From Pseudooceanicola sp. HF7 (GTDB lineage: Bacteria > Pseudomonadota > Alphaproteobacteria > Rhodobacterales > Rhodobacteraceae), in contig NZ_JAATOW010000008.1 of assembly GCF_011806405.1 (NCBI RefSeq), forward strand, positions 1-64,000: a DNA stretch of 64,000 nucleotides, written 5' to 3'. The notes beneath the pieces were generated by a model that saw nothing but the letters and a program-made list of their open reading frames with translations, had not been told where the DNA came from and made no database searches. Position numbers and translations under genes: made by a program. Shown here piece by piece: positions 7,430-59,456 of this stretch. The first letter of the stretch is position 1. Each line of letters opens with the position of its first letter.

Positions 7430-8139
7430 GCCTCGCGCGACCTCCGGGCAATGGCCGCCCGGTAGCGGCCGCGTTTCCAGGTGCGCGCGATCTCTGACCA
7501 GAGGGTCTTCTTGCGCTGGATGGTGGAGCCGCCGTGATCCTCGGCCGCGCTGCGGATATGCGCGGGCCAGAGCGTCAGGCTGTCCACCCCGGTCTCCCAC
7601 CGCATCTGCAGCCAGGTGTCCACGGGCCTGTCGAAGGTGCTCGAGGCCTCAAGCAGCCTGGCCGCGGCATCGCTGCCCAGCAGGTAAAGCGCCGCCGTCA
7701 GGCCGATCACCTTGGGGCGGAACAGCTTGACGCCGCCCGCCTCTGCAATGACTTTGCCCGGCTCTTCGCGCGGCGACATCGGAAAACGGATCAGGCTGTC
7801 CGGCCCGCCGTGCGCCATGGCCAACTCAAGCGCCTTGGGGAAATCCGCGCCCAGCACCACGTCATCCTCGGCCACCAGGCCGAAGGGCGCGCCGGAATCG
7901 CGGATCCGCTCCCAGGCGGCGCGATGGGACAGGAAACAGCCGATTTCAGAGGGCATCAGGCCGAAGGGATACTTTGGCTTGAGGCGGGCGCGGGTGATCT
8001 CGGCCACGGCCTCATGGCTCATGGCCCGCCCGTTGACCGCCGGCACGACATGCAGATCGGGCAGCCCCTCTGCCAGGGCGTCCACAAGGGGCTCCCGCGC
8101 GGTGCTGCTATCAAGGTGAATGACATAGGACTGGACCAT
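7426..8139 (-). CDS. Glycosyltransferase family 25 protein
   Basis: 237 aa. GT25 enzymes (LPS sugar transferases of the LgtB/LpsA type) add galactose or glucose to lipooligosaccharide. The family opening YVIHLDSSTAR is at 5-15, followed by MPSEIGCFLSHRAAW near 62-76 and the metal-binding triad Glu91-Asp92-Asp93 in GLVAEDDVVLG. The C-terminal 35 residues are basic (RKKTLWSEIARTWKRGR), which fits peripheral membrane attachment. It is the first gene of a two-gene operon with the GT11 gene, joined by a 4-nt overlap. Sugar specificity cannot be read from sequence. Confidence 0.85.
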   Translation of the reverse strand: MVQSYVIHLDSSTAREPLVDALAEGLPDLHVVPAVNGRAMSHEAVAEITRARLKPKYPFGLMPSEIGCFLSHRAAWERIRDSGAPFGLVAEDDVVLGADFPKALELAMAHGGPDSLIRFPMSPREEPGKVIAEAGGVKLFRPKVIGLTAALYLLGSDAAARLLEASSTFDRPVDTWLQMRWETGVDSLTLWPAHIRSAAEDHGGSTIQRKKTLWSEIARTWKRGRYRAAIARRSREA

Positions 8140-10836: not shown

Positions 10837-11154
10837 CGGTGTATCCTTACGGGGAGCACTCCCGGGCCTTCCCGGGTCTCCCGTTTGCATGGCGGCCCCA
10901 TTGCCGCCGACCCCATCATCCTTTGCTTCACGGCGCGGGGGTCTGCGCGCCACGTCTCAGATGGGCGGGCCATACAGGAAAACAGGCTCCGAGGGAAGGG
11001 TATTCACATCCGCCACCCGCCGCAGGGCGCGCAACCTTCGGCTGAAATCTGCCCCGGGGTCCGCGCAACCGCAGCCTGAAAGGGCGCGCGGGACCAGTCG
11101 CTGGCCCTCCCGGCGCCGGCCCCTTGCGTGCAAGGGCTTACGGGGTACTGCGGA
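10837..11154. other. 318-nt gap upstream of pnp
   Basis: No gene is supported. The pnp-proximal third holds the structured pnp leader (separate entry). A short palindrome, CCCTTGC-GT-GCAAGGG (11121-11136), lies just downstream of the receiver gene's stop and may be its transcript end, but no T tract follows. A leftward pnp promoter is expected here, yet I cannot point to one. Confidence 0.6.
10851..10908 (-). promoter_or_regulatory. Structured 5' leader of pnp
   Basis: Read leftward, the leader has a hairpin with GGCGGC/GCCGCC arms (10891-10908). It is followed by a nested hairpin whose inner arms are CCCGGG/CCCGGG (10861-10876) and whose outer arms are GGGAG/CTCCC (10852-10882). It ends about 15 nt before the pnp start codon. 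In E. coli, pnp mRNA is autoregulated through an RNase III-cleaved leader hairpin; a similar role here is inference. Confidence 0.5.
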
Positions 11155-43317: not shown

Positions 43318-44520
43318 GTGCCGATCCGCATCCTGACCAATGCAACTCTGGCGACGATGGAGGCAGGTGCTGGCTCTTACGGGTTGCTGTCCTGTGGCGC
43401 CCTGGCGATGGAGGATGACAAGATCCTCTGGTGCGGTCCGGCCTCTGAACTGCCCGCTTACGACGATGCCGAGGTCGAGGATCTGGGTGGCCGCCTGGTG
43501 ACGCCCGGTTTCATTGATTGCCACACACATGTCGTCTTCGGCGGGAACCGCGCGCGTGAATTCGAGCTTCGGCTGGAAGGGGCGTCTTATGAAGAAGTGG
43601 CGCGGGCCGGCGGCGGGATCGTTTCAACCGTGCGTGCCACGCGGGAGGCCAGCGAAGAGGCGCTGCTTGCCGATGCTCTGCGGCGCGTGGACGCCCAGCT
43701 GGCCGAAGGGGTCACAACGCTTGAGGTGAAATCGGGCTACGGTCTGGACATAGAGACAGAGCTGCGAATGCTGCGTGTTGCGCGTCGCATCGCGGCCATG
43801 CGCGATGTGACCATACGCACCAGCTTCCTTGGCGCTCATGCGATCCCGCCGGAATATGCGGACCGCGCGGATGCCTACCTGGAAGAGGCCTGTCTGCCTG
43901 CTCTGCGGGCGGCGCATGCAGAGAGGCTGGTTGATGCGGTGGATGGCTTCTGCGAAGGGATCGCCTTTCTGCCGGAACAGATCGAACGGGTCTTTGCAGA
44001 GGCAAAGGCGCTTGGCCTGCCCGTAAAGCTGCACGCAGAGCAATTGTCGAACCTCGGCGGCGCGGTTTTGGCCGCCCGGCATGGCGCGCTGTCGGCAGAT
44101 CACATCGAATACCTGGATGCAGAGGGTGTCTCTGCCATGGCCGCGGCTGGAACCGTCGCGGTTCTGCTGCCCGGCGCCTTCTATACGTTGAGAGAGACAC
44201 AGGTGCCCCCCGTCGCCCTGTTGCGTGAGTCGGGTGTGCCGATTGCCCTGGCCACGGATTGCAACCCCGGGTCCTCTCCGCTCACATCGCTGCTGCTGAC
44301 GCTCAACATGGGCTGCACGCTGTTCCGCCTGACGCCGGAAGAGGCGCTGGCCGGGGTGACGCGCAACGCGGCACAGGCCCTGGGCCTGACGGATCGCGGC
44401 GTGCTGCGCGCCGGTGCGCGTGCGGACTTGGGCATCTGGAACGTCGCTGAACCCGCAGAGCTTGCCTATCGGATCGGTTTCAACCCGCTCCATCGCCGTA
44501 TCATCGGAGGACATGCATGA
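43318..44520 (+). CDS. hutI: Imidazolonepropionase
   Basis: 400 aa. It opens the imidazolone ring to give N-formimino-L-glutamate. Amidohydrolase ligands: [14 protein letters not shown] near 65-78, [10 protein letters not shown] near 177, [12 protein letters not shown] near 238 and [10 protein letters not shown] near 313. The GTG start at 43318 follows a CGAGG site; no ATG matches the family start. It overlaps hutH by 4 nt and opens the hutIHGU operon. Confidence 0.96.
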
Positions 44521-46052
44521 CCGATCTCATTCCTGGCGCGACCACGCTTTCACAGCTTGAGGCGCTTTACCGCAGCGAGGGTCCGGTGCGTATTGATCGG
44601 GCCGCCAAGCCCGCCGTGGAAGCCGCAACTGAGGCGGTGCGCAAGGCCGCCCAGGGCGAAGAGGCCGTCTACGGCGTCAACACTGGCTTCGGAAAGCTGG
44701 CTTCTGTCAAGATCGCCCCGGAAGACACGGCGACGCTGCAACGCAACCTGATCCTGTCCCATTGCTCCGGTGTCGGAGAACCCACGCCGGCCCCGGTGAC
44801 GCGTCTGATGATGACGCTCAAACTGCTATCGCTGTCACGCGGGGCATCCGGTGTCCGCTGGGAGGTCATGGAGCTGATCGAGGGGATGCTGGCGGCGAAC
44901 CTCGTGCCTGTCGTGCCTGCCCAGGGCTCTGTCGGGGCATCCGGGGATCTTGCGCCGCTGGCCCATATGACCGCCGTGATGATCGGCGAAGGCGAGGCCG
45001 TGTTTGACGGCGCGCGGATGCCCGGTGCGAAGGCTTTGGAAAAAGCGGGGCTGTCGCCTGTGGTGCTGGGGCCGAAGGAAGGGCTTGGGCTGATCAACGG
45101 CACGCAATTCTCGACCGCTCATGCCCTGGCCGGATTGTTCGAGGCCTGGCGCATGGCAGAGGCCTGCCTGGTCACCGCCAGCCTGTCGACCGATGCGATC
45201 ATGGGCTCCACCGCGCCGCTGTTGGCTGAAATCCACGCCCTGCGCGGACATCGCGGTCAGATCGAGGTTGCCGCTGCCATGCGCGACCTGATGGAGGGTT
45301 CCGAAATCCGCGAGAGCCACCGCGAAGGCGACAGCCGCGTTCAGGATCCCTACTGCATTCGCTGCCAACCCCAGGTCGTAGGCGCCTGTGTCGACCTGTT
45401 GCGCATGGCCGCCACCACGCTCGAGATCGAGGCCAATGCGGCCACCGACAACCCGCTGGTCCTGACCGAGGCCGGGCGCATCGTTTCGGGCGGAAATTTC
45501 CACGCAGAGCCGGTGGCCTTTGCCGCCGATCAGATCGCGCTGGCGGTGGCCGAGATCGGGGCAATTGCGCAACGCCGCGTGGCGCTGATGGTGGACCCGA
45601 CGCTCAGCTTCGATCTGCCGCCTTTCCTTGCGATGGATCCCGGCCTGAACTCCGGCTTCATGATTGCCGAGGTCACCACCGCCGCGCTGATGAGCGAGAA
45701 CAAACACCTCGCCAATCCCTGTTCGACAGACAGCACGCCGACCTCTGCGAACCAAGAGGACCACGTCTCCATGGCCGCCCATGGCGCGCGGCGGCTGTCG
45801 CGCATGGTCGAGAACCTGTCGAACATCCTGGGGGTCGAGCTGCTGTGCGGGGCGCTTGGGATCGAATGCCGCGCGCCGCTCAAGACCAGCGCGACCTTGC
45901 AGGCCGCCATAGCGAAACTGCGCGAAACGGTCCCGCCACTTGATCAGGACCGCTACCTTGCGCCGGAGATCGAGACCGCCGCGCAGCTTGTCGCCTCAGG
46001 CGCGTTGGTGGCTTCCGTATCCGGCACGCCCCTCATGACACTCGGAGACTGA
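44517..46052 (+). CDS. hutH: Histidine ammonia-lyase
   Basis: 511 aa. It deaminates L-histidine to urocanate. The MIO prosthetic group forms from Ala141-Ser142-Gly143 in [14 protein letters not shown]. Also visible: [11 protein letters not shown] (52-62), [12 protein letters not shown] near 278 and [20 protein letters not shown]-like C-terminal active-site residues. It begins inside the hutI stop (ATGA) and ends one nt before hutG starts. Confidence 0.97.
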
Positions 46053-46053
46053 T

Positions 46054-46872
46054 ATGGAGCCCGTGAGCGTCTTTCCCGGCGACAGCCCCGTCATCCTTGG
46101 GATGCCCCATGTCGGCACCTATGTGCCCGAGGATATCTTCAACCGCCTGAACGAGACCGGCAAGGCGCTGGCCGATACTGATTGGCACATTCATCTGCTT
46201 TACGACGGTGTGCTGGACGGTGCGAGCGTGGTGCAGGCAAACTTCCATCGCTACGTGATCGACGCCAACCGCGATCCCTCCGGGCAAAGCCTTTATCCCG
46301 GGCAGAACACCACCGGCCTTTGCCCGCTGACGGATTTTGAAGGCCATGCGCTTTACCTGCCGGGGCAGGAGCCCGATGCCGCAGAGGTAGAGGCACGGCG
46401 CCAAGCCTGGCATGCGCCCTATCACGCCGCCATGCAGCGCATGATCGACCAGACGCTGGAAAGGCACGGGGTCGCGATCCTGTTCGATTGCCACTCGATC
46501 CGGTCAGAGATCGCCTTCCTGTTCGACGGCATCCTGCCCGATCTCAACATCGGTACGAACGACGGCAAGAGCTGTGCGCCGGTGCTGGAAACGGACGTCG
46601 CCTCAATCGCCGCGCAGCATGCGGACAGCTACAGCTGGGTGCTGAACGGCCGCTTCAAGGGCGGCTGGACCACGCGCCACTATGGTCAGCCGGACAAACA
46701 TGTGCACGCGATCCAGCTGGAGCTGGCCCAGAAGACCCACCTGCGCAGCGAAAGCGCGCCCTTCGACTTCGATGAAGCCCGGGCAGAGCGCCTGCGCAAC
46801 ACGCTGAAACCCATGCTTGGCACCCTTGATGCCTTGGCCCCATACCTTCCGGGAGGAAAGAAACATGGCTGA
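46054..46872 (+). CDS. hutG: N-formylglutamate deformylase
   Basis: 272 aa. It hydrolyses N-formyl-L-glutamate to glutamate and formate, the last step of the five-step route, pairing with HutF. Family blocks: [10 protein letters not shown] near 16-25, [25 protein letters not shown] and [10 protein letters not shown] near 147-156 with zinc-binding His/Asp residues. It belongs to the N-formylglutamate amidohydrolase family, not the ureohydrolase family that carries the same gene symbol in Gram-positives. It overlaps hutU by 8 nt. Confidence 0.94.
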
Positions 46873-48544
46873 CCGCCGCCACAACCTGCGCGATGTCTAC
46901 CCGCCGACCGGCACGGAGCTGAACGCGAAATCCTGGCTCACCGAGGCGCCCCTGCGGATGCTGATGAACAACCTGCATCCCGACGTGGCAGAGAACCCGC
47001 ATGAGCTGGTGGTCTACGGCGGCATCGGTCGCGCGGCCCGCACCTGGGAAGACTTCGACCGCATCTGTGCCGCCCTGAAGGACCTGTCCGAGACGGAGAC
47101 CCTTCTGGTGCAATCGGGAAAGCCCGTCGGCGTCTTCCAGACCCACAAGGACGCGCCGCGCGTGCTGATCGCGAACTCGAACCTCGTGCCGCACTGGGCC
47201 AATTGGGACCATTTCAACGAGCTCGATAAGAAGGGTCTGGCGATGTACGGCCAGATGACCGCCGGGTCCTGGATCTACATCGGTACGCAGGGCATCGTCC
47301 AGGGCACCTACGAGACCTTCGCCGAAGCCGGCCGTCAGCATTATGACGGCGACCTGACCGGCAAGTGGATCCTGACGGGCGGCCTTGGTGGCATGGGTGG
47401 CGCTCAGCCGCTGGCCGCCGTCATGGCGGGCGCCTGCTGCCTGGCCGTGGAATGCGACGAAACCCGGATCGATTTCCGCCTGCGCACCCGCTACGTGGAC
47501 GAAAAGGCATCCACCTTGGACGAGGCGCTTGAGATGATCGAGCGCTGGACCAAGGCGGGGGAAGCAAAATCCGTGGGGCTGGTCGGCAACGCGGCCGATA
47601 TCTTCCCTGAGCTTGTGCGCCGCGGCGTGCGCCCGGACATCGTGACCGATCAGACCTCGGCCCATGATCCTGTGAACGGCTATCTGCCCAAGGGCTGGAC
47701 CGTGGCCGAGTGGCGCGAAAAGCGCGAGAGCGATCCGAAGGCGGTAGAGAAGGCCGCGCGTGCCTCCATGCGCGAACATGTCGAGGCGATGGTGGCGTTC
47801 TGGAACGCAGGTGTGCCCACGCTCGATTACGGCAATAACATCCGGCAGGTGGCGCTGGACGAAGGTTTCGAGAACGCCTTTGCTTTCCCCGGCTTCGTGC
47901 CTGCCTATATCCGCCCGCTCTTCTGCCGCGGTGTCGGGCCCTTCCGCTGGTGTGCGCTGTCCGGCGATCCGGAGGATATCTACAAGACCGACCAGAAGGT
48001 GAAGGAGCTGATCCCCGACGATCCGCACCTGCACAAGTGGCTGGACATGGCGCGCGAGCGGATCTCCTTCCAGGGGCTGCCGGCGCGGATCTGCTGGGTC
48101 GGCCTTGGCCAGCGTCACCGCCTGGGCCTGGCCTTCAACGAGATGGTCCGCACCGGAGAGCTGAAGGCCCCGGTGGTCATCGGGCGCGATCACCTTGATT
48201 CGGGCTCGGTCGCTTCGCCGAACCGCGAGACCGAGGCGATGAAGGACGGCTCCGACGCCGTGTCCGACTGGCCGCTGCTGAATGCCCTGCTGAACACCGC
48301 TTCGGGCGCGACATGGGTGTCGCTGCATCATGGCGGTGGGGTCGGAATGGGTTTCTCCCAGCACTCCGGCATGGTCATCTGCGCCGACGGTAGCGAGGAC
48401 GCGGATGCGCGGCTTGCCCGTGTGCTCTGGAATGACCCGGCAACCGGCGTTATGCGACATGCAGATGCGGGCTATGACATCGCTCTGGACTGCGCGCGCG
48501 AACATCAACTCAAACTTCCCGGGATACTCGGGTCCGCCGACTAA
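46865..48544 (+). CDS. hutU: Urocanate hydratase
   Basis: 559 aa, full length. Urocanase adds water to urocanate using a tightly bound NAD, giving imidazolonepropionate. Family blocks: [23 protein letters not shown] near 15-37, [33 protein letters not shown] (NAD site) and [10 protein letters not shown]. The start overlaps the end of hutG. It closes the enzyme part of the hut operon; the transporter genes follow after 68 nt. Confidence 0.97.
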
Positions 48545-48612
48545 CAACTCGGGAAGGGCGGATCCAAACAAAAACAAGACCCTCCCCCAATCCAACAGAT
48601 GGAGAACCGAAC

Positions 48613-49425
48613 ATGAAGAAGACTCTGCTGGGAATGCTGACCGTCGCCGGGCTTGGCCTGGCCGGTGCGGCGCAGGCCGACGTGCTTTCCGACATCATGG
48701 AAGAAGGCAAGATCACTGTCGCGACAGAGATGCACTACGCACCTTTCGACATCCTGCAAGATGGCAAATACGTGGGCATCGACGCGGATATCTTCGCCAT
48801 CATGGGCGAGAAGATGGGCGTCGAAGTCGAATACATGGACCTGCCCTGGAATTCGATCCTGCCCGGCCTGGAAGCCGGCAAGTTCGATTTCGTCATCGCG
48901 CCCGTCACCATGACTGCCGAACGGATGGAGCGTTACAACTTCACCCTGCCGATCGGCAATGCCACCGTTGCCCTGGCCAAGAAGGCCGGCGATGACAGCA
49001 TCTCGGTCCCTGAGGACATCGCGGGTCAACCTGTCGGCACCCAGAAGGGCACGGCGCAGCTGGCACAACTTCAGGCCTTCTCTGCCACCCTGGAGCCCGA
49101 AGCGGAGATCCGCGAATACGGCAACATCGACGAGGCGCTGGCGGATCTGGCCGCGGGCCGTCTGAAGGCGGTTGCGAACTCCCTGCCGCTGATGGGCTAT
49201 GCCGCTGTCCAGCGTCCGGGCCTGTTCGAGCTGGTGATGCCGCCCTTCGGTGATCCCAAGTACTTCGGCTGGGTCGCCGCCGGTGGCGAGGAAAGCGAAA
49301 GCCTGATCGCCAAGGTGAACGAGATCCTGCTGGAAATGCACGAAGACGGCTCCCTTGATGCGATCAACGAGAAATGGCTGGGCGCGGCACCTGAGCTGCC
49401 CACGACCATGCCGGAAGTGAAGTAA
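48613..49425 (+). CDS. Polar amino-acid ABC transporter, periplasmic binding protein
   Basis: 270 aa. A signal peptide (1-22, ending GAAQA) precedes a type II periplasmic-binding fold of SBP family 3: TVATEMHYAPFDIL near 35-48, GIDADIFAIMGEKM, and DFVIAPVTMTAERMERYNFTLPI near 92-114. Its place after hutU and before two permeases and an ATPase suggests it binds histidine or urocanate (inference). Its own GGAGAACC ribosome-binding site suggests high expression, as usual for binding proteins. Confidence 0.9.
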   Translation: MKKTLLGMLTVAGLGLAGAAQADVLSDIMEEGKITVATEMHYAPFDILQDGKYVGIDADIFAIMGEKMGVEVEYMDLPWNSILPGLEAGKFDFVIAPVTMTAERMERYNFTLPIGNATVALAKKAGDDSISVPEDIAGQPVGTQKGTAQLAQLQAFSATLEPEAEIREYGNIDEALADLAAGRLKAVANSLPLMGYAAVQRPGLFELVMPPFGDPKYFGWVAAGGEESESLIAKVNEILLEMHEDGSLDAINEKWLGAAPELPTTMPEVK

Positions 49426-49497
49426 GACCATGCCGGCGGGTCACTGCGATCCGCCGGTTTCCCCTTTGGCCTGTTCCGCCAGAAGGATGCATGCTCC

Positions 49498-50151
49498 GTG
49501 AATTTCTCGTTCGAGACGATCTGGCACAACCTGCCCTACCTGCTGGCGGCGGCGCGCTGGACGCTGATCATTTCCCTGGCCGGCATGGCGATTTCGGTGA
49601 TCTGGGGCATCTGCATCTGTGCCGCGCGTATCTCTTCTTCGCGCCTGCTGTCGGGAATTGCCGCGCTCTACATCTCGTTTTTCCGCGGGGTGCCCTTGCT
49701 GGTGCAGATCCTCGTGTTCTTCTACATCCTGCCCTATGTGGGTCTGGATCTGCCTGCCATTGCCGCGGCCATCGCGGCCGTCGGCCTGTGTTCGGCGGCC
49801 TATTCGGCAGAGATCCTGCGCGGCTCCCTGCAGGCGATCCCGGCCGGTCAGACTGAGGCCGCTCATGCCCTTGGGATGCCGCCCATGTCGCTCTGGCGGC
49901 GCATTCTCGTCCCACAGGCGATCCGCATCGGGCTGCCCTCTCTGATCAACGAATTGATCCTGCTGGTGAAGGTGTCTTCCCTTGCGTCGGTCGTCGGCAT
50001 CGGTGAGCTGACCCGCGTTGCGCAGAACATCACGGGCCAGACCTACCGCCCGCTGGAGATCTACATAACCGCTGCCGTGCTCTACTTCCTGATCAACCTC
50101 GTCATCTCCCGCGCCGGGCTGCTGGCTGAGAAGCGTCTGAAGGTGTCCTGA
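49498..50151 (+). CDS. Polar amino-acid ABC transporter permease 1
   Basis: 217 aa from a GTG start, about five membrane helices. The His/Glu/Gln/Arg/opine permease block SFFRGVPLLVQILVFFYILPY is near 61-81, and the EAA loop EAAHALGMPPMSLWRRILVPQA near 120-141 contacts the ATPase. AAGGATG precedes the start by about 10 nt. It overlaps permease 2 by one base. Confidence 0.9.
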   Translation: MNFSFETIWHNLPYLLAAARWTLIISLAGMAISVIWGICICAARISSSRLLSGIAALYISFFRGVPLLVQILVFFYILPYVGLDLPAIAAAIAAVGLCSAAYSAEILRGSLQAIPAGQTEAAHALGMPPMSLWRRILVPQAIRIGLPSLINELILLVKVSSLASVVGIGELTRVAQNITGQTYRPLEIYITAAVLYFLINLVISRAGLLAEKRLKVS

Positions 50152-50810
50152 TGGAACTGGATCTTTTCCTTCGCTACGGGCCCGCGCTTCTGGAGGGCTT
50201 CGGCGTCACGGTCCTGTGCTGGATCGTCGGCTCGCTGGGCGGCGTCGTGCTGGGCTTCATCCTGGCCTGTCTTTATCGCTGGGGCCCCGCGCCGCTTCGC
50301 TGGGTGATCTACGCCTATGTCGAGGTCATCCGCGGCACGCCCTTCATGATCCAGCTCTTCCTGCTCTATTATGGCGGGCCCTACATGGGTCTTGTCCTGA
50401 CGCCGATCCAGGCGGGTATCCTCAGCTTCATCGTCTACGGCTCCCCCTATTTCGCAGAGATCTTCCGGTCCGGCTTCAACGCCATCCCGCTGGGCCAGAT
50501 TGAGGCCGCCCGCTGCCTTGGCATCCCGGAATGGCGCATCGTGCTGCGCATCACCCTGCCGCAGATGTTGGTGCCGATCACCGCGCCGCTGACCAACTTC
50601 TTCATCATCCTGACCAAGGAAACCGCGATCCTTGCCACCGTCACGGTGCCGGAGCTTCTGTTCCAGGTGCAATCGATGATGGCAGAGACCTTCACCTACG
50701 TCGAACCGCTGCTGGCGCTGTCGCTCTTCTACTGGTTCATGGTCACCCTCACAGCCCGCTTCGGCGCCTGGGTGGAAACCCGCGTCACACGGCACCTGAG
50801 CCGCGCCTGA
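50151..50810 (+). CDS. Polar amino-acid ABC transporter permease 2
   Basis: 219 aa, about five membrane helices. Family blocks [21 protein letters not shown] (57-77) and [21 protein letters not shown] (near 119-139, EAA loop). It should pair with permease 1 in the inner membrane. The ATG overlaps the previous stop by one base; the ATPase gene follows 13 nt later. Confidence 0.92.
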
Positions 50811-50823
50811 AAGGAACACCCCC

Positions 50824-51609
50824 ATGTCCGAACCGATCCTGACCGTCCGTGGCCTGTCCAAGCGTTTCGGAGATTTCGAGGCGCTGCGGCACATCGACCT
50901 GGACGTGAACCAAAACGAGGTTCTCTGCCTGATCGGGCCGTCCGGGTCCGGCAAATCAACGCTGCTTCGCTGTCTCAACTTCCTTGAGGCCTATGACGAT
51001 GGCGAAGTGCGTCTGGAAGGGGAGCTGATCGGCTGGCGTGAAGGCGGGGCCTCTCCGCGGCGTGCCCTGGCGTCGGGCGCCCTGCGCAAGCAGCGGCAGG
51101 GGATCGGAATGGTCTTCCAGCAATTCAACCTCTGGCCCCACATGACAGCGCTTGGCAACGTGACCGAGGCGCTGATGCAGGTGAAGGGCCTGTCCCGCAA
51201 GCAGGCTGAGGAAAAGGCGCAGGCTGCGCTTGAAAAGGTCGGGCTGTCTGACAAGGCGGGTAACCACCCGGCCAACCTGTCGGGCGGGCAGCAGCAGCGC
51301 GTGGCCATCGCCCGCGCCGTCGCGATGGAACCCCGGCTGATGCTCTTCGATGAGCCGACCTCGGCACTTGATCCCGAACTGGTCGGAGAGGTGCTTGCCG
51401 CCATGAAGCAGATGGCGGCAGAGGGCATGACCATGGTTGTCGTGACCCATGAAATGGGCTTTGCCGCCCATGTGGCGGATCGCGTGGCCTTTCTTGACGG
51501 CGGTCGGCTGGTCGGTGTCACCCCCCCGTCAGAGATCTTCGGCAAGGAGCCGGAAGATCCCCGTATCCAGCGCTTCCTGCAAACCTACCGTGAGCGCAAC
51601 GTCGTCTGA
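50824..51609 (+). CDS. Polar amino-acid ABC transporter ATPase
   Basis: 261 aa. Walker [10 protein letters not shown] (39-47), Q-loop QQFNLWPH near 99, signature LSGGQQQR near 154-161, Walker [13 protein letters not shown] near 175-186 and H-switch VTHEM near 207. It is longer than typical HisP-like proteins by an insert around 62-88 ([22 protein letters not shown] region). It completes the transporter attached to the hut operon. Confidence 0.94.
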
Positions 51610-51787
51610 TCCCGTTTGATTCGCGCCCTCTCTAGGGGGACTTTTGCCGCTTGGGTGACCAAAGGCTGAGCATTCCGCGCGTGCTCGGGGTCAAAAAGCG
51701 ATCAAAATCGGTCCGTTTCGGCCCACAGGTCATGTGAGGCAAGACAGGTGCCCTGCCGGGGTTAACACTTCTGTCATGAGCCGATGG

Positions 51788-51843
51788 CCGGGGACGACCC
51801 CGGATTTGCCCTGAGCGCCCATCCTGACAAAGGGGACGACCCC
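51788..51843 (+). promoter_or_regulatory. Guanidine-II (mini-ykkC) riboswitch candidate
   Basis: Hairpin P1 is CCGGGG-ACGA-CCCCGG (51788-51803); hairpin P2 is GGGG-ACGA-CCCC (51832-51843). The 12-nt cores are identical and both loops are ACGA, matching the ACGR tetraloops of the mini-ykkC motif; the linker of 28 nt is within the range I recall for that class. P2 ends 13 nt before an AAGGGAG ribosome-binding site (51857-51863) and 30 nt before the GTG start, as expected for a translational switch in which guanidine stabilises loop-loop contact and frees the site. No covariance test was possible here. Confidence 0.85.
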
Positions 51844-51873
51844 ACGACCAAAGCTTAAGGGAGCCGAAGGATC

Positions 51874-52983
51874 GTGACCCGTGATTTGAAGGAAAAGGCA
51901 GAAGTTGCGCGTGTAATCGCAGATGATCAGATGGCGCTCACGATAGATGACGCCACCTTGCCCGTCGTGGATCTCGGGCCGCTGATGACCGGCACGCAGG
52001 CCGACAGGACCCGAGTGGCCGCTGCGCTTGGCAAGGCCGCGCGGGAGTCGGGCTTCTTCTACATCATCAACCACGGCATCCCGCAGGAACAGGTCGAGGC
52101 GACCTTCGCTGCGTCGAAGCAATTTCACGAGATGACCCGTTCCGAGAAGATGAAGTACTGGTGCGGGTTCACCACCCACCATCGCGGGTTCGTCCCTTAC
52201 GAGGAAAACGGCTGGGATTTCCCCAAGACCATCAACTTCAACGAGGCCTGGGACATGTCCTACGAGGCCCCGGCGGATCACCCCGATTACCTGGCCGGCT
52301 GGCGCATGACCGGCCCCAACGTCTGGCCCGACCTGCCGGGCTGGAAAGAGACCGTATCTGGCTATTACGACGCGGTCTTCGCCCTTGGTTTGAAACTGCT
52401 CGACACGCTGGCGCTTGAGCTTCAGGTCGACCCGGCGGAGCTGCGCCAGCACATCAACGTCCCGTGCTCTCAACTGCGCCTGCTGCATTACGTCGCCAAC
52501 GACATGCCAGCCACGAAAGAGATGATGGGCATCGGCGCGCATTCCGATTTCGAGTGTTTCACCATCCTCGCCACCGGCGGTCCCGGGCTACAGGTGATGA
52601 ATGCCGATGACGTCTGGATAGAGGCCCCGCCAATTCCGGGCACCTTCGTTGTTAACATCGGGGATATCTTCGAAACCTGGTCGGGCGGGCAGTTCAAATC
52701 CACCCAGCACCGGGTGATCAACTCAGGCAGGGAGCGCTATTCCATGCCGCTCTTCTTCGGCTTCGACTACCATGCCGTGGTGGAACCGCTGGAGAAGTTC
52801 CGCACGCCGGAGGCCGTGGCAAGGTACCCGCCCATGGCGGCCGGAGAGCACCTGATGCGGATGACCACGAAGGGGTTCCGCTACATGTCCGACGCCCGGG
52901 ACAAGGGGGTCTTCATCCCCGACTACGAAATCCCGGACGAGAACCCCTTCAAACGCGAGGCGAAACAGCCCGCGCAAGGATGA
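51874..52983 (+). CDS. Isopenicillin-N-synthase-like Fe(II)/2-oxoglutarate dioxygenase
   Basis: 369 aa from a GTG start. The DIOX_N region (LPVVDLGPLM, 29-38; SGFFYIINHGIP, 59-70) precedes the jelly-roll oxygenase domain. The iron triad is His223 and Asp225 (GAHSDFECFT) with His279 (QHRVIN); the 2-oxoglutarate-binding Arg288-Tyr-Ser290 follows. Such enzymes hydroxylate or desaturate small molecules; plant relatives hydroxylate homoarginine at C6 and so release guanidine. It is the first gene after the guanidine-II-type leader and is followed by an ABC transporter. Substrate is inferred to be a guanidino compound, not shown. Confidence 0.9.
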   Translation: MTRDLKEKAEVARVIADDQMALTIDDATLPVVDLGPLMTGTQADRTRVAAALGKAARESGFFYIINHGIPQEQVEATFAASKQFHEMTRSEKMKYWCGFTTHHRGFVPYEENGWDFPKTINFNEAWDMSYEAPADHPDYLAGWRMTGPNVWPDLPGWKETVSGYYDAVFALGLKLLDTLALELQVDPAELRQHINVPCSQLRLLHYVANDMPATKEMMGIGAHSDFECFTILATGGPGLQVMNADDVWIEAPPIPGTFVVNIGDIFETWSGGQFKSTQHRVINSGRERYSMPLFFGFDYHAVVEPLEKFRTPEAVARYPPMAAGEHLMRMTTKGFRYMSDARDKGVFIPDYEIPDENPFKREAKQPAQG

Positions 52984-53114: not shown

Positions 53115-54194
53115 ATGACGATCAAGACAAACCTGACCCGCCGAAGCTTCCTTCAGACCAGTGCAGCCGCTGCCGCGGCCTCCGGCCTTGCCGCGCCCCT
53201 GATCGCCCAGGACCGGGTGCTGAAGATCGGCTCCTACGGCGGCTATTTCGAGGACAGCTTCAAGCAATACGTCTATCCCGGTTTCACCGAGGCGACTGGC
53301 ATCACCGTGGAGAGCGTGACCCAGCCCAACTCTGCCGACTGGCTGATCACCATGCAGCAAGCGGCCATGGCGGGGACCGTGCCTGCGGACCTGTCGCTTT
53401 ACGCCCGTGACACGCTGATCAAGGCCAGCCGGGAGGAAGGGCTTCTTGCGCCGCTCGACATGTCCAAGGTGCCGGCCGCCAGCCAGCTTGATCCGTACTT
53501 CGTCTTCGAAGACAGCCCCGGGGTCTTGGGCGTGGGGGCGATGTCCTGGTTCTCTTCCATGGTGATCAACCCTGATGAGATCGACGCGCCGGCAAGCTGG
53601 GCCGATTTCTGGAACACGGAGATCTTCGAAGCCTCCCTTGGGATCGCGCGGCGCTACAATGCCGGTTTCATGGATGTCATCGCCGCGACCTTCTTCGACG
53701 GGGAAGAAACCTTTGCCACGAACGAAGGCATCATCGCCATCACCGAGAAGGCCGCAGAGCTGAAGCCCAACGTTGCGCTCTGGTGGTCGGCAGAAAGCCA
53801 GATGGAACAGGCGATGAAGAACCTCGATGTGGTGGCGGGCACCTACTACCACGATGTCGCGGGGATCATGGCTGCCGATGGCTTCCCGATCCTGTCGATG
53901 TTCCCGAAAGAGGGCTGCGTGCAGGATTACGGGTCCTGGTGCCTGTCCGGCCTGTCGGAGAAAGGCGCGGAGGCCGCTGAGTTCGTGAACTATTCCTCCA
54001 CGCCGGAAGTGCAGGCCATCATGTCCCGCATGATCGGCACCGCGCCGCTGCTGCCCCAGGAGGCGACCGACCTAACGGACGAGGAATTCGCCGCCGTTTC
54101 CGGCTCCCCTTCCATCCGCCCGGCCTACGGCGCTTACCTGGATAACGAGACCTTCATTCAGGAAACCTGGGACGCGATGCTGGCCGAGGGCTGA
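53115..54194 (+). CDS. Tat-exported ABC transporter substrate-binding protein (PotD-like)
   Basis: 359 aa. The N-terminus TRRSFLQTSAAAAAASGLA is a twin-arginine signal (RRSFLQ at 9-14) with cleavage near ALIAQ-like residues at about 31. The mature protein follows the spermidine/putrescine-type binding fold: KIGSYGGYFEDSFKQYVYPGFTEATGI and the middle WFSSMVINPDEI. Ligands of this group are cationic (polyamines, opines), so a guanidino compound is plausible. It begins the transporter part of the operon; a short basic open frame of 16 codons overlaps its start. Confidence 0.88.
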   Translation: MTIKTNLTRRSFLQTSAAAAAASGLAAPLIAQDRVLKIGSYGGYFEDSFKQYVYPGFTEATGITVESVTQPNSADWLITMQQAAMAGTVPADLSLYARDTLIKASREEGLLAPLDMSKVPAASQLDPYFVFEDSPGVLGVGAMSWFSSMVINPDEIDAPASWADFWNTEIFEASLGIARRYNAGFMDVIAATFFDGEETFATNEGIIAITEKAAELKPNVALWWSAESQMEQAMKNLDVVAGTYYHDVAGIMAADGFPILSMFPKEGCVQDYGSWCLSGLSEKGAEAAEFVNYSSTPEVQAIMSRMIGTAPLLPQEATDLTDEEFAAVSGSPSIRPAYGAYLDNETFIQETWDAMLAEG

Positions 54195-54197
54195 TCC

Positions 54198-55271
54198 ATG
54201 GCCGATCTCGTCATGAAAGCCATCCGGAAGGATTTTGGGTCCTTCCGGGCGGTGGACAACATCAACCTGACCTTTGCGCATGGCAAGCTGACGGCGCTTC
54301 TGGGCCCGTCAGGATGCGGCAAGACTACCCTTTTGCGGATGATCGCGGGGCTGGAGACCCCCACCCGGGGGCAGCTCATGCTGGGCGATCAGGAGATCAC
54401 GGCCAAGCCTGCTCATCAGCGCAAGTTCGGCATGGTCTTCCAGAACTTCGCCCTGTTTCCGCACCTAAGCGTGGCAGAGAACATCGCCTATTCGCTCGCG
54501 ATTGAAGGGGTGGCAAAGGCCAGGCGCCGGGCGCGGGCAGATGAGCTGCTGGAGCTGGTTCAACTTGTTGGCTACGGCGATCGCCGCATCGGAGAGCTCT
54601 CCGGCGGGCAGCGCCAGCGGGTGGCCATTGCCCGGGCCCTTGCGCAGGAACCTTCCGTCTTCCTGCTTGATGAACCGATGTCGGCGCTTGATGCAAAGCT
54701 GCGCGAAGACATGCAGGTAGAGTTGCGCCTGCTTCAGCAGCGCGTCGGCATCACCACCATCGTCGTGACCCATGATCAGCGCGAGGCGATGACCATGGCC
54801 GACCAGATCGTGGTCATGTCCAAGGGTCGCGCCGAACAGGTCGGCACCCCGCAAGAGATCTACTCCAGGCCGGCCAACAGTTTCGTTGCCTCTTTCATCG
54901 GCAAGGCGAACTTCCTGGCGGGTGAAGCGCAGGGTGGCAGGTTCCGGGTGGGTGACTACCTTCTGCAGGCCCCGGAAAGCCGTCAGTTCACCAACAATTC
55001 ACCGGTGACCATTGCAGTGCGTCCCGAGAACGCCGTGATCGCAGAGACGGAAAACGCGGCCCTTGGCAACAACATCCCGGCAGAGATCACCTTCATCCGT
55101 GATGTGGGCTCTACCCGCGACATCTACCTGAAGACACCGGTGGGCGAGATGATCGTGGAATACGGCGCCGGTGAGACCCTGCGCCCCCTTTCCGTGGGTG
55201 AAAAGGTGCCGCTTCATCTGCCGCCCGAGAAACTTCATGTCTTCCCCCGCGACGTGGAGGCGGCGGGATGA
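54198..55271 (+). CDS. PotA-type ABC transporter ATPase
   Basis: 357 aa. Walker A GPSGCGKTT near 36-44, signature LSGGQRQR near 134-141, Walker B VFLLDEPMSALD near 154-165, H-switch VTHDQ near 191, and a C-terminal TOBE/OB regulatory domain (about 240-350). The domain arrangement is that of polyamine/iron/2-aminoethylphosphonate importers. It starts 3 nt after the binding-protein stop and overlaps permease 1 by 4 nt. Confidence 0.93.
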   Translation: MADLVMKAIRKDFGSFRAVDNINLTFAHGKLTALLGPSGCGKTTLLRMIAGLETPTRGQLMLGDQEITAKPAHQRKFGMVFQNFALFPHLSVAENIAYSLAIEGVAKARRRARADELLELVQLVGYGDRRIGELSGGQRQRVAIARALAQEPSVFLLDEPMSALDAKLREDMQVELRLLQQRVGITTIVVTHDQREAMTMADQIVVMSKGRAEQVGTPQEIYSRPANSFVASFIGKANFLAGEAQGGRFRVGDYLLQAPESRQFTNNSPVTIAVRPENAVIAETENAALGNNIPAEITFIRDVGSTRDIYLKTPVGEMIVEYGAGETLRPLSVGEKVPLHLPPEKLHVFPRDVEAAG

Positions 55272-56239
55272 GCCTGAGCACCGCAGAGGATCTGCCTACA
55301 CCGGCCCCCATCGTGGTCCGCGAACCCTCTCTCTGGTTCAAGCTGGGGCTGGTCGCCTTGCTGGCCCTTCTGTGTCTCGTGCCATTCCTCTTCGTGCTTA
55401 CCATTTCATTCGGTCACAAGATCGAAGGGGCGGGATGGGCGTTCGGCTTTGAGTTCAGCCATTACAAGCGCTTCTTCCTTGGCGCGACATGGCCGGAGAC
55501 GTTCCAGTCGCTCTACATCCAGCGGCTTGGCTATTCTCTGTTTTTCGCGGCGATCGGTGCCGTGATCGCCGTCGCGCTGGCCTTTCCCTTCACCTATTTC
55601 CTGACCCGGATGAGCCGGCGGGCACAGACGGTCTGGCTGGTGGTGCTGCTCTCATCCCTGTCCCTGTCAGAGGTCTTCATCGTCATGGGCTGGGATATCC
55701 TGCTGTCCGCACGCTCCGGATTGCCCGCGCTGCTCGACGGGATCGGGTTCACCGACCTGATGAAAGACCTGGGCTGGTTCCAGTGGTTCAGGGATGTCGG
55801 CCTGGCCTCACCCCGTGCCTTCAAGTTCAAGACATCGGGCTTCGCGACGGTGCTCTGCATGGCCTACCTGGTCTGGCCCTATGCGGTGATCCTGCTTTAC
55901 CCGGCGCTGTCACGTCTGGACCCGGCGCTGGTCGAGGCCGCGCGCACCATGGGCGCCCGGCCCGGGCAGGTCGTCAGGACGGTCGTTCTGCCCTCTGTTC
56001 GGCTGCCTCTTTTCGGCTCCACCCTGCTGCTCTTCGTCTTCCTGCTGGGCACCTATGTCACGATTTCCGTCTTTGCCGATCCGTCGCAGCACACGCTGGC
56101 GGTTTCCATCTACGATTCCGTACGCGGCTCGACCCTTAACGCCCCCTTCGGCGCGGCCCAGTCGGTCATCCTTCTGATCACGGCGGGGCTATTCCTGATT
56201 GCGGGACAGAAGCTTTCCAAAGCCGGAGGCACGGCATGA
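55268..56239 (+). CDS. ABC transporter permease (PotB-like)
   Basis: 323 aa with about six helices and a long first cytoplasmic tail. The EAA loop VEAARTMGARPGQVVRTVVLPSVRLPLFGS is near 222-251. An unusual insert of about 40 residues, GLPALLDGIGFTDLMKDLGWFQWFRDVGLASPR-like, lies between helices 3 and 4. It overlaps the ATPase and next permease by 4 nt each, so all are co-translated. Confidence 0.91.
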   Translation: MSLSTAEDLPTPAPIVVREPSLWFKLGLVALLALLCLVPFLFVLTISFGHKIEGAGWAFGFEFSHYKRFFLGATWPETFQSLYIQRLGYSLFFAAIGAVIAVALAFPFTYFLTRMSRRAQTVWLVVLLSSLSLSEVFIVMGWDILLSARSGLPALLDGIGFTDLMKDLGWFQWFRDVGLASPRAFKFKTSGFATVLCMAYLVWPYAVILLYPALSRLDPALVEAARTMGARPGQVVRTVVLPSVRLPLFGSTLLLFVFLLGTYVTISVFADPSQHTLAVSIYDSVRGSTLNAPFGAAQSVILLITAGLFLIAGQKLSKAGGTA

Positions 56240-57039
56240 GGATTTCTCTTTTCGGGCGGCTGTTCATGGGGCTGAGCGCGGTGATGCTGATGCTGCCGAT
56301 CCTGGTGGTTGCGGCCTCTGCGCTGAACGGCGGGCGATCCATGCTGTTCCCGCCGCAGGACCCGACACTGACCCGGTTTTCAGAGTTCTTCATCTCTGAA
56401 CCGATCTGGCGCACGGCGCTTGGCAACTCGGTGATCGTGGCGCTCAGTTCCGCGGCGATCGCGGTGCTCTTCGCCTGGCCCGCGGCTTATTTTCTGTGGA
56501 AAAGGGCGACCGGGCTGTCAAAGGCCATCGCCGGGCTGATGGCCTTGCCCTTTGCCGTTCCGCCCATCGTCTTTGGCGTCGGGCTTGGCTTCATGTGGTC
56601 CTTTCTCGGTGGCTTGGGCTCCCTCTGGGCCGGGATCCTGTCCCATGGGGCGTTGTTCGCCGCGCTGCCGCTGGTCACCATCTCCATCGGGTTGCAAAGC
56701 ATCGATCGTGCCCACCTAGACGCCGCCGCAACCATGGGCGCGACCGAGGGCGTGACCTTCCGCACGATCATCCTGCCACAGACCATCCCCTACACCATCT
56801 CGGGCTTCTTCTTTGCCATGGTGCTCAGCTTCAACGAGTTCATCGTGATGTTCTTCGTCTCCAGCTCCTCCTACGCGACGGTGACGCTGCAGATCTTCAA
56901 TTCACTGCGCAACGGCTTCACGCCCACGATGGCCGTTGGCGCGATCACCTTCATCTTCGTCTCCGTCGCCGCCTTTTCCCTGGTCGCGCGCTACGGCGAT
57001 CTGCCGCGCCTGATGGGTGCCGATCAATCCCGCAACTGA
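56236..57039 (+). CDS. ABC transporter permease (PotC-like)
   Basis: 267 aa, about six helices. The EAA loop LDAAATMGATEGVTFRTIILPQTIPYTISG is near 161-190, and FNEFIVMFFVSSSSYATVTLQIFNSLRNGFTPT near 200-232 is the conserved PotC C-terminal region. It pairs with the previous permease. The isochorismatase-like gene begins 10 nt later. Confidence 0.92.
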   Translation: MRISLFGRLFMGLSAVMLMLPILVVAASALNGGRSMLFPPQDPTLTRFSEFFISEPIWRTALGNSVIVALSSAAIAVLFAWPAAYFLWKRATGLSKAIAGLMALPFAVPPIVFGVGLGFMWSFLGGLGSLWAGILSHGALFAALPLVTISIGLQSIDRAHLDAAATMGATEGVTFRTIILPQTIPYTISGFFFAMVLSFNEFIVMFFVSSSSYATVTLQIFNSLRNGFTPTMAVGAITFIFVSVAAFSLVARYGDLPRLMGADQSRN

Positions 57040-57049
57040 AGGAACTGCC

Positions 57050-57661
57050 ATGCCCCGCCAACCTACAATCGTCGGAAACGCCGTCCTGCTGGTCATCGAC
57101 ATCCAGGCCTCTGCCTTCATGGATGTGAAAGAGGGCATCCCGATGATGCCCGAATACAAGGACAACATGGCCCGGGCCCTCAAGGTCATCGAGGCCGCGC
57201 GCGAAGCTGGTTTGCCCACTGTCTACGTACAGGAAATCCACCGCAAGGACATGGTCGACTACGGTCGCGAACTGGATGGCTCTGAGGGAATCCACTGCCG
57301 TGAGGACCACCCTGGAACGCGCTTGCCGGCAGAGATCACCGGCCAGCGGCCAGAGGATTACTTTGTCCCCAAGCGCCGCTACTCTGCCTTCTTCGGAACG
57401 GATCTTGAGATCCTGCTGAAGGGGCTCAAGGCGCAAACCCTGATCCTGATCGGCGGCATGACGGATGTCTGCGTGCATTACACCTTCGTCGATGGGCACC
57501 AGCATGACTACTACTGCCGGGTCGTTTCCGACTCTGTCGGGGGAACCTCGCCCGAAGCGCACCAGGCCTCCCTCAACGCGATGGAATACCTTCAGGAAGG
57601 TGCCGTGATCAAAACGGAAGACGCCATTGCCAAGATCCTGTCCCTCAGCGCCGCTGCATGA
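57050..57661 (+). CDS. Isochorismatase-like cysteine hydrolase
   Basis: 203 aa. The catalytic triad is intact: Asp17 (LLVIDIQ), Lys108 (PKRRYSAFFGTDL) and Cys141 (GMTDVCVHYT), with a cis-peptide GGMTDV just before the cysteine. Family members are mainly C-N hydrolases of carbamoyl/ureido/amide groups (biuret hydrolase, carbamoylsarcosine amidase, nicotinamidase). ATG at 57050 has GAAGGAAC upstream. Within this operon it could hydrolyse a carbamoyl- or guanidino-derived amide (inference). It overlaps the next gene by 4 nt. Confidence 0.91.
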   Translation: MPRQPTIVGNAVLLVIDIQASAFMDVKEGIPMMPEYKDNMARALKVIEAAREAGLPTVYVQEIHRKDMVDYGRELDGSEGIHCREDHPGTRLPAEITGQRPEDYFVPKRRYSAFFGTDLEILLKGLKAQTLILIGGMTDVCVHYTFVDGHQHDYYCRVVSDSVGGTSPEAHQASLNAMEYLQEGAVIKTEDAIAKILSLSAAA

Positions 57662-58395
57662 GCGAAATGCGCATCGGCGGGCACTGGCAGCGTGAAAGCA
57701 TCACTGCACCGGGCATGGAGGATCGCACGACCCGTGTTCACTGGTTGCAGGCGGAGGAAGGGTTTTGCGACATCCGCATCCCGCTGACCCGGCCCGATAC
57801 AGAGGGTGCAGGCGCGCTTTGCGAACTGGGGGCCGACGCGCTGCTGGAGCTCATGAACGGCTTCGGCTTTGCAGGCACGACCCAGCTAAAGGGGGACCGC
57901 TGCACCTGGCATCGCCAGATCGCATTTCACGGGACACCCGAGGGCGCGGCGGCGGATGTCGGCACCCTGCGTCGCGGCCCCGGGGGGCGCATTATCGAAG
58001 ACGGTGCCGAAGGCGCTTACAGAGAGGTCTGGACGCGCCTGGCCCATGCGCCTTGTGACCATGCCACGTGGAGGCTGGAAGATCGCGTGTTGCATCTTGC
58101 CTGGACGCGATCGACCTTCCTGCTGGCAACCGGGGTTCCGGATGCGCCGGACAGCCTTTCCCTGCGCCAGGCCCTGGAAAAAGGGGAGCGCCCGGAGGCG
58201 GCACTGGCCGATTTCTTCACCGCCGAATACACGCTTGGCCATTGGGATAGAGATCGTGGTGTTGCGCGCCTTTCAACGGACCCGCTGCGCGAGGGGCAGG
58301 TCATCCTTTCTCTTGCCGGGCTTGAAGATGCCCGGTTGCACCTTTTCCGAACGGATTACTTCGGCACGCTTCGGGAAGAGGTCTGGCACCGCTGA
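57658..58395 (+). CDS. Hypothetical protein, operon-end
   Basis: 245 aa, soluble, no signal. Trp/His/Asp-rich, beta-rich sequence: GGHWQRESITAPGMEDRTTRVHWLQAE-like opening (7-33), CTWHRQIAFHG near 82-92, HATWRLEDRVLHLAWTRSTFLLATGVP near 131-157 and a GVARLSTDPLREG segment. I recognise no family; the layout of antiparallel strands with a polar interior recalls a ligand-binding beta-barrel (lipocalin-like) but this is only an impression. Co-translated with the isochorismatase-like enzyme (ATGA overlap), so it probably serves the same pathway. Confidence 0.7.
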   Translation: MSEMRIGGHWQRESITAPGMEDRTTRVHWLQAEEGFCDIRIPLTRPDTEGAGALCELGADALLELMNGFGFAGTTQLKGDRCTWHRQIAFHGTPEGAAADVGTLRRGPGGRIIEDGAEGAYREVWTRLAHAPCDHATWRLEDRVLHLAWTRSTFLLATGVPDAPDSLSLRQALEKGERPEAALADFFTAEYTLGHWDRDRGVARLSTDPLREGQVILSLAGLEDARLHLFRTDYFGTLREEVWHR

Positions 58396-58445: not shown

Positions 58446-59243
58446 TCAGATCAGCCCCTTGCCTTCCCAAAGGGAAAGATATTCGTCGCAGATCTCCTGC
58501 ATCCTGGCGTGGCCAAAGGCGGTATCGTGACCACCATGGACGATTTGCACCGGTAGCTCGCGGATCTTGCGAAGGGTCTCTGCATAGGCAGGCACATCAT
58601 AGTCCGGGCCATCCCATAACAGGGGGCCGTCATAGATCGCGTCGGCGCTGAAAAGCGTGCCGGTCTCTTCCTGCCACAGCCCGATCTGGCCCGGAGAATG
58701 ACCGGGAAGGTGGATGACCTCTGCCTTCCAGCCGCCAAGATCGATGACATCCCCTTCGGTCACCGTGCCGGTGGCAGGGGCACCGGGAAACCGATAACTG
58801 CGGGGGTCGTAGCCCTCATGGGGCAGCGCGTCGATCAGCATCGGCCAGAGCGGAGCATAGCCTGCTGCCTCGAACGCCTCGACAAGCGATTGCGGCAGGG
58901 TCGAGGCATCCAGGGAATAGGCCGGCGGCGTCGCCAGTTCGCCGGCTTCCAGGGGATGGACCAGGCGCGTGTCGAATTCCTGTACCGCGCCGAAATGGTC
59001 AACATGCGTGTGCGTGGTGAGGCAAATCATGGGCTTGGAGGGATCGGGTCGCAGCGCATCGACAAAGGGCCTGAGCGGCGCAACGCCCATCCCGGTGTCG
59101 ATGATCATTTCCAGGTCTTCTCCTTCAACCAGATACATGTTGGCTGAGAAGATCGGATGCACATGGGGCTCTGTAATCAGCGTCAGGCCGGGGGAAGGGG
59201 ATGCGGAGCGATACCAGGCTTTGGCGACGGGCAAGGCGCTCAT
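58446..59243 (-). CDS. Metallo-beta-lactamase-fold hydrolase
   Basis: 265 aa. The MBL metal motif THTHVDHFGA (His78, His80, Asp82, His83), then HLPGHSPGQIGL with a third-position His near 200 and a later HGGHDTAFGH. Members cover lactonases, glyoxalase II and quinone/aryl hydrolases, so substrate is open. ATG at 59243 is chosen as the family start; a longer frame has no ribosome-binding site. It is convergent with the guanidine-type operon and divergent from the glycan cluster; no clear partner. Confidence 0.87.
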   Translation of the reverse strand: MSALPVAKAWYRSASPSPGLTLITEPHVHPIFSANMYLVEGEDLEMIIDTGMGVAPLRPFVDALRPDPSKPMICLTTHTHVDHFGAVQEFDTRLVHPLEAGELATPPAYSLDASTLPQSLVEAFEAAGYAPLWPMLIDALPHEGYDPRSYRFPGAPATGTVTEGDVIDLGGWKAEVIHLPGHSPGQIGLWQEETGTLFSADAIYDGPLLWDGPDYDVPAYAETLRKIRELPVQIVHGGHDTAFGHARMQEICDEYLSLWEGKGLI

Positions 59244-59456
59244 GGTGTCTCTTGCCCCAATGGCTTGTCCTCGAATGTCATCTCGTCTCGTCCCCTCGCA
59301 TCGCGTAAAATGCAACTCCAGGTTAACAATTTGGACCGCGAGGTGAATACTGGCGTTCCTTCCCCAAACGTGTGGCAGGCGAGATACCGCCCCTGAACTT
59401 AAACACGGCGGGAAAAGGCCTGCAAAAACGGCGCGATTGGGGAAGATCCGGGCAGC

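Follow-up and report, generated by a model that had tools for sequence, protein, structure and literature searches.

A probable guanidine-II riboswitch before an oxygenase and importer operon of Pseudooceanicola sp. HF7 that may release guanidine from a guanidino compound

Two identical hairpin cores in front of an oxygenase gene of Pseudooceanicola sp. HF7 raise the question of whether this leader is a guanidine-II riboswitch and, if so, what the genes below it have to do with guanidine. The locus lies within the first 64,000 nucleotides of contig NZ_JAATOW010000008.1 (forward strand), a stretch referred to here as the window. The original prediction had described two ACGA-loop hairpins 28 nt apart that end 13 nt before a Shine-Dalgarno sequence, and this description was confirmed. 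On the forward strand, P1 (CCGGGG-ACGA-CCCCGG, 51788-51803) has a 6-bp stem and P2 (GGGG-ACGA-CCCC, 51832-51843) a 4-bp stem, the two being separated by positions 51804-51831, and positions 51844-51856 lead to the Shine-Dalgarno sequence AAGGGAG (51857-51863), which as read in the sequence stands 10 nt before the GTG start at 51874 of the oxygenase gene, hereafter OXY. Taken as a whole, it appears quite probable that a guanidine-II-controlled operon of seven genes, together with a convergent hydrolase gene, imports a guanidino compound, strips guanidine from it and is induced by guanidine, with methylguanidine or a related compound as the most likely imported substrate. The sequence basis of this reading comprises the riboswitch match, the conservation of three leaders, the gene families, the catalytic residues and the co-occurrence with guanidine-I riboswitches.

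The prediction had further held that such a pair is unlikely to arise by chance. The 12-base core GGGG-ACGA-CCCC occurs exactly twice in the window, both times in the OXY leader; with up to one mismatch it has three matches against 0.80 expected, and since five of 100 shuffles also reach three, the core counts alone are a weak control. A stricter scan for tandem hairpins (stem of at least 4 bp, ACGR loop, starts 18-70 nt apart) returned a single pair on both strands of the window, that of the OXY leader, and three pairs in 24 related loci (752,046 strand-bases), one of which is the orthologous leader in Pseudoruegeria sp. HB172150 (L009).

In a comparison with Rfam, the guanidine-II model RF01068 matches the window at 51786-51844 with 30.8 bits (E 2.7e-4), over the full model (1-48) and with 11 inserted linker bases; it is the sole Rfam match in 51500-52100 at E<=10 under relaxed thresholds, although it stays under the gathering cut-off of 32 bits, and no Rfam family reaches its gathering score anywhere in the window. 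The 11-nt linker insertion may explain the shortfall. In the genome as a whole, the OXY leader is the best RF01068 match, the next one scoring 19.9 bits (about 11 bits lower), and among the 39 matches listed in a survey of 198 genomes of the family its 59 nt make it the longest, followed by one of 53 nt. The leader element is very probably a member of the known guanidine-II class with a long and perhaps folded linker, a membership graded as very probable rather than proven because the score falls below the cut-off.

The pair is also kept before the same gene in two relatives, namely L126 (same genus, oxygenase 88% identical, RF01068 29.6 bits) and L009 (oxygenase 82%, 27.9 bits), both likewise below the cut-off. 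In a 24-kb search with all Rfam families, the three leaders obtained E values of 0.011, 0.02 and 0.052, each marginal alone, and the stems and loops of the aptamer do not differ among them. Of the comparative expectations attached to the prediction, conservation in orthologous leaders was found in part: these three co-directional operons keep the pair, and the remaining orthologs that were examined do not have it ahead of their oxygenase gene. No covariation in P1, P2 or the outer stem was scorable among the three leaders, and it cannot be argued because their stems do not vary. A chance match as the reading of the hairpins was rejected on account of the conserved leaders and an independent guanidine context, described below, and for the same two reasons a false positive is unlikely; with RF01068, they support the riboswitch reading of the original prediction.

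The 28-nt linker falls inside the 7-40 nt reported for guanidine-II RNAs in the available text of PMC7544219. A possible accessory stem enclosing P1 (51783-51823, forward strand) would be formed by GAUGG (51783-51787) and CCAUC (51819-51823). All five of its pairs are shared without change by the window, L126 and L009, whose linkers otherwise differ over much of their length, and the pairing leaves 8 nt to P2 (9 nt in L009). The stem is drawn in the predicted folds of window 51780-51880 and of L126, and is absent from a longer fold of the window and from the fold of L009; since some predicted folds do without it, the support for it is conservation, not energy.

Further downstream, the minimum-energy fold of the window leader contains a predicted expression platform (51843-51876, forward strand), in which CACGACC (51843-51849) pairs with GG plus UCGUG (51869-51876). 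The GUG start codon is part of this stem, the Shine-Dalgarno sequence lies between its two arms, and the first base of CACGACC is the last base of P2, which is out of register in the same fold. The computed pair probabilities for the three leaders, which apply to the ligand-free RNA and use energy parameters that ignore loop-loop contacts, are 0.15-0.33 for in-register P2 and 0.92-1.00 for the P1 core. A similar start-site stem is present in the L126 fold and none in that of L009, the complement ACG/CGU is possible in all three leaders and the next A-U pair in two of them, and the stem is compatible with a correctly folded P2 at the cost of one pair. By energy, the leader fold does not stand out from shuffled sequences (z -0.57, with 50 of 200 at least as stable). 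Ligand binding, which needs the ACGA tetraloop on P2, should oppose the platform-stem state. A short AUCCU/AGGAU complement, noticed by eye in the window, looks poorly kept in L126 and L009.

The original prediction of an oxygenase/transporter operon was right, and it can be refined to a probable guanidine-releasing pathway that is related to MgdH/MgdL and has its own importer. OXY (51874-52983, forward strand, as are the six genes after it) encodes a 2-oxoglutarate/Fe(II) oxygenase of 369 aa with PF14226 and PF03171 over cut-off. It is followed by the genes of an ABC importer, consisting of a substrate-binding protein (SBP) with a Tat signal (53115-54194; PF13416, PF10518), only weakly PotD-like with 37 bits to the PotD model, far below its cut-off, an ATPase (54198-55271; PF00005, PF08402) and two permeases (55268-56239 and 56236-57039; both PF00528). 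The remaining genes encode ISO, an isochorismatase-family cysteine hydrolase of 204 aa (57047-57661; PF00857), and U245, a candidate MgdL-family lyase of 245 aa (57658-58395), while the convergent gene on the reverse strand encodes MBL, a metallo-beta-lactamase-fold hydrolase (58446-59315; PF00753). Directly upstream, at 44517-51609, lies a histidine-utilisation-like cluster (hutH, hutG and hutU by eye) with an amino-acid ABC importer; as this cluster is kept in the genome G588 and was not found in L009, the riboswitch operon is probably a separate unit.

In Vreelandella boliviensis, MgdH is described as a methylguanidine hydroxylase and MgdL as an N-(hydroxymethyl)guanidine lyase that needs D49 and R51, with the published gene order gca, mgdH, mgdL (PMC12508155, in the part available). 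The same order, gca, oxygenase and an ORF of 225 aa, was found in the same-phylum locus L116, where the oxygenase directly follows a urea/guanidine carboxylase gene (TIGR02712, 1781 bits) and gca, UAAP1, UAAP2 and the TIGR03427 importer SBP all score over their NCBIfam cut-offs. Unlike the published operon, L116 carries other ABC-transporter genes before the next amidase-like ORF (by eye). OXY is 43% identical to the L116 oxygenase over 341 aa. It keeps H223, D225, H279, R288 and S290, all conserved, which make up the 2-oxoglutarate/Fe(II) facial triad and the 2-oxoglutarate-binding R-x-S.

The identification of OXY as MgdH itself was rejected, given that it falls outside the clade of guanidine-operon oxygenases in both trees. 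A 51-row tree places it among further oxygenases from the same family (97/94, with a long-branch warning), and a 29-row subset gave the same grouping (98/94). Constraining OXY to the guanidine-linked rows costs 8.9 log units with p-AU 0.059, so that this placement is almost rejected, though not at 0.05, with three of the nine rows called guanidine-linked (L085, L089, L091) assigned by their place in the first tree and not by their neighbours. Of the eight oxygenases it groups with, L114, L117 and L118 were read with their flanks, where the queries for guanidine importer and guanidinase matched no gene. OXY is therefore named MgdH-like by context, and its separate clade means that its substrate may well differ from methylguanidine. 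At L111 (G127:C1:656500-675500), two guanidine-I riboswitches about 14 kb apart flank a second oxygenase, which shares 43% identity with OXY and 54% with that of L116. The window's own genome encodes two further oxygenase paralogs (L115:4626-6793, G000:C37), 27% and 36% identical to OXY, at a distance of about 11 kb from guanidine-I; their neighbours are ABC importer genes and a gene that looks amidohydrolase-like by eye.

U245 has no Pfam or NCBIfam match at E<=0.001, and its assignment depends on the 225-aa ORF of L116, which overlaps the 3' end of the oxygenase gene and has D at 49 and R at 51. MgdL homology was accordingly judged via this MgdL-like ORF and not via the published MgdL sequence. 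In a single comparison, the two proteins are 35% identical over 130 aa (E 7e-17), and D38 and R40 of U245 align with D49 and R51, being invariant in all rows of a 31-row alignment (at most 28 of them distinct, as L121, L122 and L125 are apparently duplicates of L013, L017 and L018) and also in the 20 rows of a second alignment. The predicted structure is beta-rich (pLDDT 93), its best solved match being yeast YLR301w (TM 0.56), followed by weak lipocalin-like matches. Among 38 loci of more distant oxygenase homologs, MgdL relatives occur within 1.5 kb of the oxygenase in five (L081, L084, L088, L090, L097; L084 is the same as L116), and farther from one in L113. On its sequence, U245 can be regarded as a relative of the lyase MgdL that retains the catalytic Asp/Arg pair, and as a candidate lyase.

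Regarding the two hydrolases, a 38% homolog of MBL adjoins an oxygenase homolog in L112, a guanidine operon region of the same phylum in which oxygenase, MgdL-like and MBL homologs are found together (L112:4626-9634). This region also carries a type III glutamine-synthetase gene and a gene of the creatininase family, the latter scoring under the creatininase cut-off, and the combination hints that methylguanidine may be connected with creatinine. The best NCBIfam matches of ISO are BiuH (58 bits) and RutB (56 bits), both far below cut-off, and its homologs of about 58-60% identity stand in transporter operons that show no obvious guanidine genes in the two plasmid regions read. A guanylurea hydrolase belongs to the same superfamily (PMC9800807, as far as its available text goes). 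This reading of ISO was rejected on account of the distant biuret hydrolase and RutB models and the two ordinary transporter neighbourhoods; the only support for it comes from ISO homologs 3' of guanidine-II in L038 and L054. These copies (about 60% identical) lie at L038:1902-2534 and L054:1903-2559, the latter directly after an SMR-like gene.

Independent of the leader, genomes with OXY are associated with the guanidine-I riboswitch (RF00442). In the survey of 198 family genomes, 32 carry it, including seven of the eight with an OXY ortholog (70% identity or more) versus 25 of the 190 without one (Fisher p 1.1e-5). Among all 19 OXY genomes, it was found in 18, in 17 of them over cut-off, with the remaining 11 OXY genomes and G083 tested under laxer filters than in the survey. 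G083 yielded no guanidine-I, though a guanidinase operon adjoins its cluster (L123). In eight of the 19 genomes, the riboswitch shares a contig with OXY at a distance of no more than 13 kb, and it was present in six of the 17 named loci, out of 24, that were searched with Rfam, some of these loci representing organisms that are also among the sampled genomes. In L121 and L122, guanidine-I is followed by genes for an importer SBP, permease and ATPase and by a guanidinase-like gene. Guanidine importer and guanidinase genes adjoin the cluster in L121, L122 and L123; an SBP ORF follows guanidine-I in L010, L013 and L020, and L019 has a guanidinase-like ORF.

The window's genome has its own guanidine-I riboswitch (G000:C37), followed by genes for an SBP (TIGR03427, 509.8 bits) and a permease and by a guanidinase-like ORF. 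NCBIfam places this ORF in the agmatinase family, under its curated cut-offs, and it carries the motif GTGWPEPGG. It is called a guanidinase because of the preceding riboswitch and because the tryptophan of this motif was matched by eye to the specificity tryptophan named in the available part of PMC11410670. Urease alpha is also encoded (981 bits). Since both this locus and urease lie on contigs other than that of the window, they indicate co-presence in the genome, not linkage.

The distribution of the cluster is scattered. OXY matches at E<=1e-150 were found in 18 of 394 sampled genomes of the family, and at E<=1e-100 in two of 22 genomes of the genus. A scan of the genome contigs with OXY yielded 24 loci, of which L021 and L029 are cut by contig ends. 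According to tblastn, the SBP gene is beside OXY in all 24, all four importer genes are present in 23, ISO and U245 in 22 and MBL in 21. Among these loci, the gene order of the window is shared by L009 alone, OXY being divergent from the rest in the other 23 (L010-L032), and in these 23 a search of both strands over the 700 nt upstream of OXY found no tandem ACGR pair. Likewise, the pair is present in the 450 nt upstream of OXY in just two of the 19 OXY genomes, the window's and G588, and missing from the other 17; the nearest sister without the leader element, G682, has an 80% identical OXY in the divergent order. The simplest history would be that the riboswitch and the operon rearrangement arrived together in one lineage. 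Apart from the window's genome, RF01068 matches at E<=0.01 occur in five of the 18 OXY genomes, in G588 at OXY and in G719, G767, G116 and G780 elsewhere. One contig of G767 (C110) carries OXY (347-1411), guanidine-I (7996-8104) and a strong guanidine-II (10841-10889, 43.7 bits), the last about 9 kb from OXY and beyond guanidine-I.

Based on these observations, a pathway can be proposed for which we infer the ligand response, the direction of control, the order of reactions, the substrate and the roles of ISO and MBL. The importer would take up a guanidino substrate, OXY would hydroxylate the carbon adjoining a guanidino nitrogen, and U245, as a member of the MgdL family, would cleave the resulting hemiaminal, giving guanidine plus an aldehyde, which would be formaldehyde in the case of methylguanidine. 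Hydrolysis of the guanidine would then fall to the guanidinase whose gene lies elsewhere in the genome, under guanidine-I, with urease completing the breakdown. In the leader, which would control translation of the operon, guanidine or methylguanidine would lock the P1 and P2 loops together and favour an exposed start site, so that the product or the substrate would induce uptake and breakdown of the precursor. The guanidine-II RNA of V. boliviensis is reported to bind guanidine and methylguanidine with similar KD (PMC12508155, in part). The original claim that guanidine turns the operon on would follow from the riboswitch class.

The identity of the substrate is the point at which the strongest competitor arises, and a reading with the same logic and a larger guanidino substrate is somewhat doubtful though far from negligible. 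Derivatives of arginine or homoarginine and guanidino-acids are examples of such a substrate, with hydroxylation at the position adjoining the guanidino nitrogen. U245 would then be a wider N-(1-hydroxyalkyl)guanidine lyase, and ISO would prepare or finish the substrate. Such a reading would suit the separate clade of OXY, the extra hydrolase ISO and an importer that is weakly PotABCD-like, unlike the TIGR03427 importer of guanidine operons; plant clade-23 enzymes and the ethylene-forming enzyme release guanidine in like manner, as stated in PMC12508155. The same paper describes MgdL as narrow for N-(hydroxymethyl)guanidine and inactive on dimethyl species, which speaks against a larger substrate given that U245 retains its catalytic pair.

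Two further readings question the purpose of the operon. An operon unrelated to guanidine, serving polyamine or amide catabolism behind chance hairpins or a decayed riboswitch, would fit the sub-threshold RF01068 score, the orthologs beyond the three leaders that have no pair, and the generic families of ISO and the importer genes; it is highly improbable in view of the invariant aptamer in three leaders, the MgdL-family partner and guanidine-I in nearly all OXY genomes, which are separate lines of evidence. The riboswitch might instead sense guanidine as a burden, released as a by-product when another part of the substrate is detoxified or used, and not serve as a switch for nitrogen use. In the family, guanidine-II does mostly precede exporter genes: 30 loci (L033-L062) were considered, of which L038, L050, L057 and L061 gave no protein to the downstream scan, and the 28 downstream proteins include 16 BTP (chlorhexidine efflux transporter), 7 SMR, 2 DUF1989 and 1 isochorismatase. 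The BTP efflux genes are presumably PACE-type. The present operon has an importer and no exporter, and a guanidinase-like gene and urease are encoded in the same genome, which makes a burden sensor unlikely. The preferred reading is that of a guanidine-releasing operon. Its gene set is a variation on the MgdH/MgdL route already published, equipped with a separate importer and probably feeding guanidinase.

A broader proposal can be put forward tentatively. The scattered pathway would N-dealkylate a guanidino compound that is new as a source of guanidine, drawing on a dedicated importer, an oxygenase of separate lineage and a lyase of the MgdL family, and in one lineage it would have been rearranged into a single operon, gaining a guanidine-II riboswitch with a folded linker. 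If true, this would constitute a product-induced loop, with guanidine switching on its own supply and guanidine-I switching on its use. The natural source of guanidine is named as a major gap in the available part of a 2025 review (PMC12186494), and the cluster is a candidate guanidine-releasing route and one possible natural source of free guanidine, tied to guanidine-I by co-occurrence and to its own riboswitch in one lineage, with named genes and a directly testable substrate. In the searches of CC-licensed PubMed Central, this arrangement of genes and riboswitch was not found in print.

In comparison with known systems, the leader resembles guanidine-II RNAs (RF01068) in its two GC-rich ACGA-loop hairpins just before the Shine-Dalgarno sequence. 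It differs from them in that, with the GAUGG/CCAUC stem, as little as 8-9 nt of linker may stay free, and the predicted start-site stem lies 3' of P2, whereas the anti-Shine-Dalgarno of the published model sits in the linker according to the text available from PMC9094411. With the mgdH/mgdL-extended carboxylase operon of V. boliviensis, as far as the partial text of PMC12508155 describes it, the window operon shares a 2-oxoglutarate/Fe(II) oxygenase, an MgdL relative with the Asp/Arg pair, an ABC importer and a guanidine riboswitch. Unlike that operon, it is without carboxylase-pathway genes, has another importer type as well as ISO and MBL, and carries an OXY of another clade, and the guanidine is presumably used by guanidinase and urease in this organism. 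Guanidine-I/guanidinase (GdmH) operons, described in the accessible parts of PMC12186494 and PMC11410670, are represented by a locus in the window's genome and stand beside the cluster in some relatives; these operons handle guanidine itself, whereas the window operon would handle its precursor.
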